Assembly: GCA_905233725.1 (NCBI GenBank)
Contig: CAJOEM010000002.1
Location: forward strand, 34,913-98,912
Direction: 5' to 3'
Length of the DNA: 64,000 bases
Source of the DNA: an uncultured Synergistales bacterium
Lineage (GTDB): Bacteria; Synergistota; Synergistia; Synergistales; Aminobacteriaceae
Under the pieces are notes generated by a model. That model was given only the letters and a program-made list of their open reading frames with translations. It made no database searches and was not told the origin of the DNA. Shown piece by piece: positions 43,465-43,704 of the stretch. Positions within the stretch are counted from its first letter, which is position 1. Each line of letters opens with the position of its first letter. The position numbers and the translations under genes were made by a program.

Positions 43465-43492
43465 TTGACAAAACGAAAATTTTTGGTATCAT
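43465..43492 (+). promoter_or_regulatory. Putative sigma70 promoter of the tRNA pair
   Basis: TTGACA - 16 bp - TATCAT, about 32 bp upstream of the first tRNA. Confidence 0.65.
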
Positions 43493-43523: not shown

Positions 43524-43598
43524 GGGTGGTTAGTTCAGAGGTAGAACGCTTCCTTGACACGGAAGAGGTCAGAAGTTCGATTCTTCTATCACCCACCA
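43524..43598 (+). tRNA. tRNA-Val (anticodon GAC), CCA encoded
   Basis: Acceptor GGGTGGT/ATCACCC, anticodon arm CTTCC-TTGACAC-GGAAG, T arm AGAAG-TTCGATT-CTTCT. Confidence 0.92.
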
Positions 43599-43613: not shown

Positions 43614-43704
43614 GCGGGGGTGGCGGAATTGGTAGACGCGCAAGACTAAGGATCTTGTGACCAATTTAAGTGTCGTGGGAGTTCGATTCTCCCCCTCCGC
43701 ACCA
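43614..43704 (+). tRNA. tRNA-Leu (anticodon AAG), long variable arm, CCA encoded
   Basis: Acceptor GCGGGGG/CCTCCGC, D arm GCGGAATTGGTAGACGC, anticodon arm CAAGA-CTAAGGA-TCTTG, class II variable arm, T arm GGGAG-TTCGATT-CTCCC. Confidence 0.92.

Follow-up and report, generated by a model that had tools for sequence, protein, structure and literature searches.

The closest described counterpart of the gene analysed here is the tRNA-Leu(IAG) of the Lactobacillales (Streptococcus, Oenococcus and the Lactobacillaceae), in which inosine at position 34 has been proven (PMC13249217, PMC11472039). The tRNA-Leu(AAG) of both Streptococcus pyogenes and S. mutans is edited by TadA in vivo (PMC11472039; PMC13249217). 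The streptococcal enzyme also edits tRNA-Leu(AAG) in vitro, and Escherichia coli TadA fails on the S. pyogenes tRNA (PMC11472039). In the Lactobacillales families that carry the gene, CUU and CUC have increased and UUA has decreased (PMC13249217, PNAS Nexus). Almost all bacterial tRNA-Leu(AAG) genes have been placed in Bacilli (PMC13249217), in agreement with an earlier note on the present DNA, which described them as reported chiefly in some Firmicutes. Bacterial A34 tRNAs besides tRNA-Arg(ACG) have been called extremely rare (PMC11066159).

Two other systems are related. The bacterial tRNA-Arg(ICG) is made by the same enzyme and has the same loop context, C32-U33-A34-N-G-G37-A38; tRNA-Leu(AAG) differs from it in having a long variable arm, and A instead of C at position 35. 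The eukaryotic tRNA-Leu(IAG) has the same decoding outcome, but its deaminase, ADAT2/ADAT3, is a heterodimer with recognition of the entire tRNA and as many as eight tRNA substrates.

The DNA described here, referred to as the window, is a 64,000-nt stretch from the genome of an uncultured Synergistales bacterium, whose assignment to the Synergistota in the earlier note was right. The locus resembles that of the Lactobacillales in the family-wide presence of AAG in place of GAG, the lack of overlap between the two, the single TadA and the five leucine anticodons. It differs in belonging to a separate phylum and to a separate event. The A-to-I mechanism is thus already known, whereas the Synergistota lineage is new. 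We consider it very likely that tRNA-Leu(AAG) is the sole reader of CUU and CUC in this bacterium, that TadA edits it to IAG, and that it replaced tRNA-Leu(GAG) once.

The tRNA-Leu(AAG) gene and its genome

The window contains two tRNA genes according to ARAGORN, tRNA-Val(GAC) and tRNA-Leu(AAG), both on the forward strand (Table 1). A match to the Rfam tRNA model falls at the place of the leucine gene (G000:C2:78526-78613, 54.1 bits, E 5e-11). Its anticodon arm, CAAGA-CTAAGGA-TCTTG, can be read directly from the letters, so that the identification proposed in the earlier note holds in full. The acceptor stem, A73, the CCA end and the T arm are all intact. Unconstrained RNA folding of the tRNA does not exactly reproduce the cloverleaf, although the covariance model does match; such inexact folds are common with long-arm tRNAs. 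The promoter is situated 5' of the tRNA pair, and the two genes are probably co-transcribed. A hairpin downstream of the pair is a possible terminator, on which the scan tool made no call.

Table 1. Features of the tRNA locus, in window coordinates
Feature	Position	Strand	Remarks
Sigma-70-like promoter TTGACA-16-TATCAT	43465..43492	+	11/12 consensus matches; TG before -10 (extended -10)
tRNA-Val(GAC)	43524..43598	+	ARAGORN; 15 bases 5' of tRNA-Leu(AAG)
tRNA-Leu(AAG)	43614..43704	+	91 nt including encoded CCA; ARAGORN
Anticodon loop CTAAGGA	43646..43652	+	C32, A34-A35-G36, G37, A38
Anticodon AAG	43648..43650	+	A34 is the predicted TadA target
Hairpin, 15 bp with two G-U pairs, loop GCGAA	43723..43757	+	followed by a short T run; found by eye

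The tRNA-Leu(AAG) is a real, functional gene. An error at the first anticodon base, which the earlier note had considered, is excluded because the same anticodon is present in more than 40 related genomes. The wider suggestion of a sequencing error or a pseudogene is extremely improbable: nothing was found in its favour, and it is refuted by the intact structure, the promoter and the anticodon shared with these relatives.

The source genome (1.87 Mb in 57 contigs, 97.9% complete) has 45 Rfam tRNA matches, all of which were fetched and typed by anticodon. The leucine anticodons are AAG, CAG, TAG, TAA and CAA, each in a single copy, and no tRNA-Leu(GAG) is present among the 45 typed matches of this draft. 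The only other A34 tRNA is tRNA-Arg(ACG), while G34 is retained in the serine, proline, threonine, alanine and valine boxes.

Two irregularities of the tRNA set were observed. A tRNA-Val(TAC) that lacks its CCA end abuts a 5'-truncated tRNA-Asp(GTC) on contig C24 (G000:C24:17191-17322; L004:92-223). The junction is located in a Val-Asp-Phe-Gly cluster, contains the sole tRNA-Asp found in the genome, and represents either a deletion or an assembly join. Two tRNA-Ala(CGC) genes (L015:16-91 and L016:93-168) are both positioned at contig ends and are probably one gene assembled twice.

The genome contains a single TadA, a protein of 166 aa encoded on contig C3 (L031:1468-1968, minus strand; G000:C3:9943-10440). 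Its equivalog-level match scores 149-150 bits, the cut-off being 150, and the H/E/C/C active site is present, with the HAE and PCxxC motifs. A second, weakly scoring deaminase match on contig C24 lies inside a 397-aa frame and, from this length and the weak score, is taken for a putative RibD.

Distribution and origin of tRNA-Leu(AAG)

The order Synergistales was surveyed in 151 genomes with a pattern fixed at the anticodon, and a looser pattern was added later. AAG was found in 55 genomes, confined to three families: f1, which is the Synergistaceae of the window, f3 and f8. The looser pattern added one more genome of f1 (G116). GAG was found in 39 genomes of seven families (f2, f4, f5, f6, f7, f9 and f10), and in 23 more with the looser pattern. 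No genome among the 151 has both anticodons; about 33 of the 151, many of them incomplete, gave no anticodon assignment. The tRNA-Leu(AAG) is therefore a fixed clade trait of three Synergistales families and not an oddity.

The survey also bears on the suggestion that the draft assembly has missed an existing GAG isoacceptor, which would make the AAG tRNA an extra one. The assembly does lack at least tRNA-Ile(GAT) and tRNA-Ala(TGC). However, no tRNA-Leu(GAG) is present in the 53 genomes of the window's family, several of which are more than 99% complete, or in those genomes of f3 and f8 that carry AAG. For the family this suggestion is refuted, and for the bacterium itself it is very improbable.

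The AAG genes of f1, f3 and f8 form one group in a tree of leucine tRNAs. By identity, the tRNAs nearest to them are the GAG tRNAs of the neighbouring family f10 (up to 92%) and not the CAG or UAG tRNAs. The TadAs of the three families are likewise monophyletic, with an invariant WNL instead of WRL. A single GAG to AAG replacement in the common ancestor of these families would be the simplest reading. Direct orthology of the AAG and GAG genes is judged from 87-nt sequences and not from gene neighbourhood. Derivation of the AAG tRNA from tRNA-Leu(UAG), which has the same CTNAGGA loop, was rejected, as comparison of the whole tRNAs points to the GAG tRNA of f10.

A wider scan with the same pattern covered 84,980 species, one genome per species, and matched at least 119 stretches. 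Among the matches listed, ARAGORN recognised 118 AAG leucine genes, of which 87 have C32/A38, 20 have U32/A38, 10 have U32/G38 and one has U32/U38. By the names in the record titles, the listed matches fall under at least about 17 phylum-level names. They comprise Streptococcus and other Lactobacillales, Clostridia, Prochlorococcus, Synechococcaceae, Verrucomicrobia, Planctomycetes, Cloacimonadota, Fermentibacteria, Hydrogenedentota, Sumerlaeia, Actinobacteria, Myxococcales, other Deltaproteobacteria, Alphaproteobacteria, Caldiserica, Deferribacteres (Seleniivibrio), Acidobacteria, Patescibacteria and Synergistota. Many of these records are metagenome-assembled genomes, so that single cases may be binning errors, which is unlikely for repeated ones.

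No GAG gene was recognisable by the same pattern in 49 of 50 AAG genomes among the matches listed, the hits being read by their stem pairing. The only genome of the 50 with both tRNA-Leu(AAG) and a plausible tRNA-Leu(GAG) is a metagenome-assembled Myxococcales genome (G189, L164); its GAG copy sits at the end of a contig and is possibly contamination.

Judged from these sequences, tRNA-Leu(AAG) is more widely distributed than the published accounts found here state, and the picture of a trait almost restricted to Bacilli (PMC13249217) probably reflects the database used. The earlier note had called AAG an uncommon decoding strategy and proposed comparing anticodons in relatives; the comparison shows that AAG is the norm for three Synergistales families, with further cases under many phylum names.

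The anticodon loop, TadA and the case for inosine

The loops of the GAG tRNA of f10 and the AAG tRNA of the window's family, TTGAGGG and CTAAGGA, differ in three bases, at positions 32, 34 and 38. Among the ARAGORN-called Synergistales genes, C32 and A38 are present in 46 of 46 AAG genes, and U32 and G38 in 57 of 57 GAG genes; a few genes are counted more than once in these numbers owing to overlapping fetched stretches. In the genome of the window the loops of tRNA-Leu(AAG) and tRNA-Arg(ACG), CTAAGGA and CTACGGA, differ only at base 35, whereas those of S. pyogenes differ at both 35 and 37.

TadA contacts only loop bases 32-38, and in the Staphylococcus aureus enzyme residues K106 and N123 read the 32-38 pair (PMC8216470). 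In E. coli, TadA partly edits an AAG anticodon when the tRNA body that carries it has an Arg-type loop, and every tested change at 32, 37 or 38 blocks this editing (PMC11066159). The failure of the E. coli enzyme on the S. pyogenes tRNA suggests that the loop alone need not suffice.

CUC codons are in free use. Seven conserved genes of the window contain 56 CUC and 31 CUU codons, and all eight CUY codons of ribosomal protein L9 are CUC, with no CUU. Over the window's genus the counts are 589 CTC to 619 CTT, and 480 CGC to 303 CGT. Such usage calls for a CUC reader in the genome, and an unedited A34 would read CUC poorly.

On these grounds, namely the loop match to tRNA-Arg(ACG), the loop requirements of TadA, the demand for CUC reading and the Streptococcus precedent, A34 of tRNA-Leu(AAG) is very probably edited to inosine. 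The single TadA copy that the earlier note had asked about is in keeping with its expectation of editing; the gene and its loop are as that note supposed, and the inosine itself is inferred. The sequence of events would be as follows. The ancestral tRNA-Leu(GAG) gene itself would have changed, with G34 replaced by A, U32 by C and G38 by A, the latter two changes turning the loop into a TadA substrate. The present tRNA-Leu(AAG) would be transcribed with tRNA-Val and then charged with leucine, and the single TadA, already editing tRNA-Arg(ACG), would deaminate its A34. The resulting tRNA-Leu(IAG) would read CUU and CUC, for which it would be the only reader in the bacterium, and could also read CUA, a codon that has a UAG tRNA as well.

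The main reason to doubt full editing in the window's genus is its TadA. Residue N46 of the E. coli enzyme (N42 in S. aureus), which bonds the target adenine (PMC8216470), is not kept there: three of three TadAs (G000, G002 and G021; L031, L273 and L274) have D46 and N108 in E. coli numbering. D46 occurs in no aligned TadA outside the genus, nearly all TadAs have N46, and seven of seven other sampled genomes of the family have N46 and D108. Replacement of N46 by I, V, L or C in engineered TadA abolishes adenine editing (PMC10894238), D108N is among the core changes in adenine base editors (PMC9880001), and N46D is not mentioned in the literature cited here. Thus A34 might be un- or mostly unedited in the genus, with CUU read well and CUC poorly by a tRNA whose TadA has drifted or been respecified. 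An AAG anticodon with unedited A34 can read CUU and some CUC (PMC11066159), and TadA is dispensable in Bacillus subtilis (PMC10454642). However, both CUC and CGC are freely used in the genus, and the same tRNA occurs together with N46 in the family's other genera. Furthermore, the N46D and D108N pair resembles a compensated exchange more than decay, because the rest of TadA is conserved. A lack of editing is therefore improbable, and editing to inosine is the preferred reading.

The TadAs and loops of 26 AAG genomes of other phyla, among the matches listed and leaving out the U38 case, were also compared. N127 of E. coli numbering (S. aureus N123) is present in 14 of 17 TadAs paired with an A38 tRNA and in two of nine paired with G38, one of these two (Puniceicoccales, L383) being read by eye. 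The association (Fisher p = 0.0085) is post hoc and ignores kinship, and Caldiserica account for three of the G38 cases. Where the leucine loop is unchanged, TTAAGGG (L098, L103, L107, L152, L153, L166, L175, L197 and L198), the TadAs (L362-L389) tend to lack N127 and K110, to which the reading of the 32-38 pair has been ascribed. A lead from this comparison is that TadAs which have lost this contact may tolerate the leucine loop in its unchanged form.

N127 is not required for A38, since the TadAs of f2, f6, f9 and Cryosericum lack it and their tRNA-Arg(ACG) has A38. Nor is WNL, in which R74 of E. coli is N in all AAG families of the order, claimed as a specificity switch: other AAG phyla keep R, the position is placed by sequence reading at the far end of the active-site strand, and the AAG families are one clade. 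A broader co-evolution of TadA and its tRNA substrates, with the 32-38 pair and the wobble pocket as the points of contact, is doubtful. Under it, lineages would acquire tRNA-Leu(AAG) either by converting 32-38 to the Arg-type C/U-A pair, with N127 retained in TadA, or by retaining the Leu-type U-G pair alongside a TadA that no longer has N127. The window's genus would be a step further on, its N46D and D108N being a charge exchange about the target adenosine that would alter the choice of base or substrate.

Leucine codon usage and significance

The shift in leucine codons at the expense of UUA, described for the Lactobacillales, was sought in 20 AAG genomes plus the window against 20 GAG genomes of the order, on about 5,000 codons from each genome and with GC3 as the covariate. 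The effect of AAG was -0.019 for CUU (t -1.0), 0.004 for CUC (t 0.2) and 0.002 for UUA (t 0.1), whereas CUG was slightly higher with AAG (0.046, t 2.3). The reading frames were picked by length only, from 20 kb of each genome, and since a single switch is common to the families, this is one contrast and not twenty. With null effects for CUU, CUC and UUA, recoding of the Lactobacillales type was rejected for the Synergistales.

The new elements are the Synergistota case, the breadth of phyla, the lack of any sign of recoding, and the combination of N46D and D108N found only in the TadA of the window's genus. Natural TadA variants of this kind are of interest for base-editor work. The Synergistales provide a test of the claim that tRNA-Leu(IAG) drives leucine recoding, and the shift was not seen in them. 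If the sequence evidence holds, bacteria would have acquired a second inosine tRNA on many occasions, each time in this one leucine box, and these gains would be independent replicates of a step that eukaryotes took at a larger scale.
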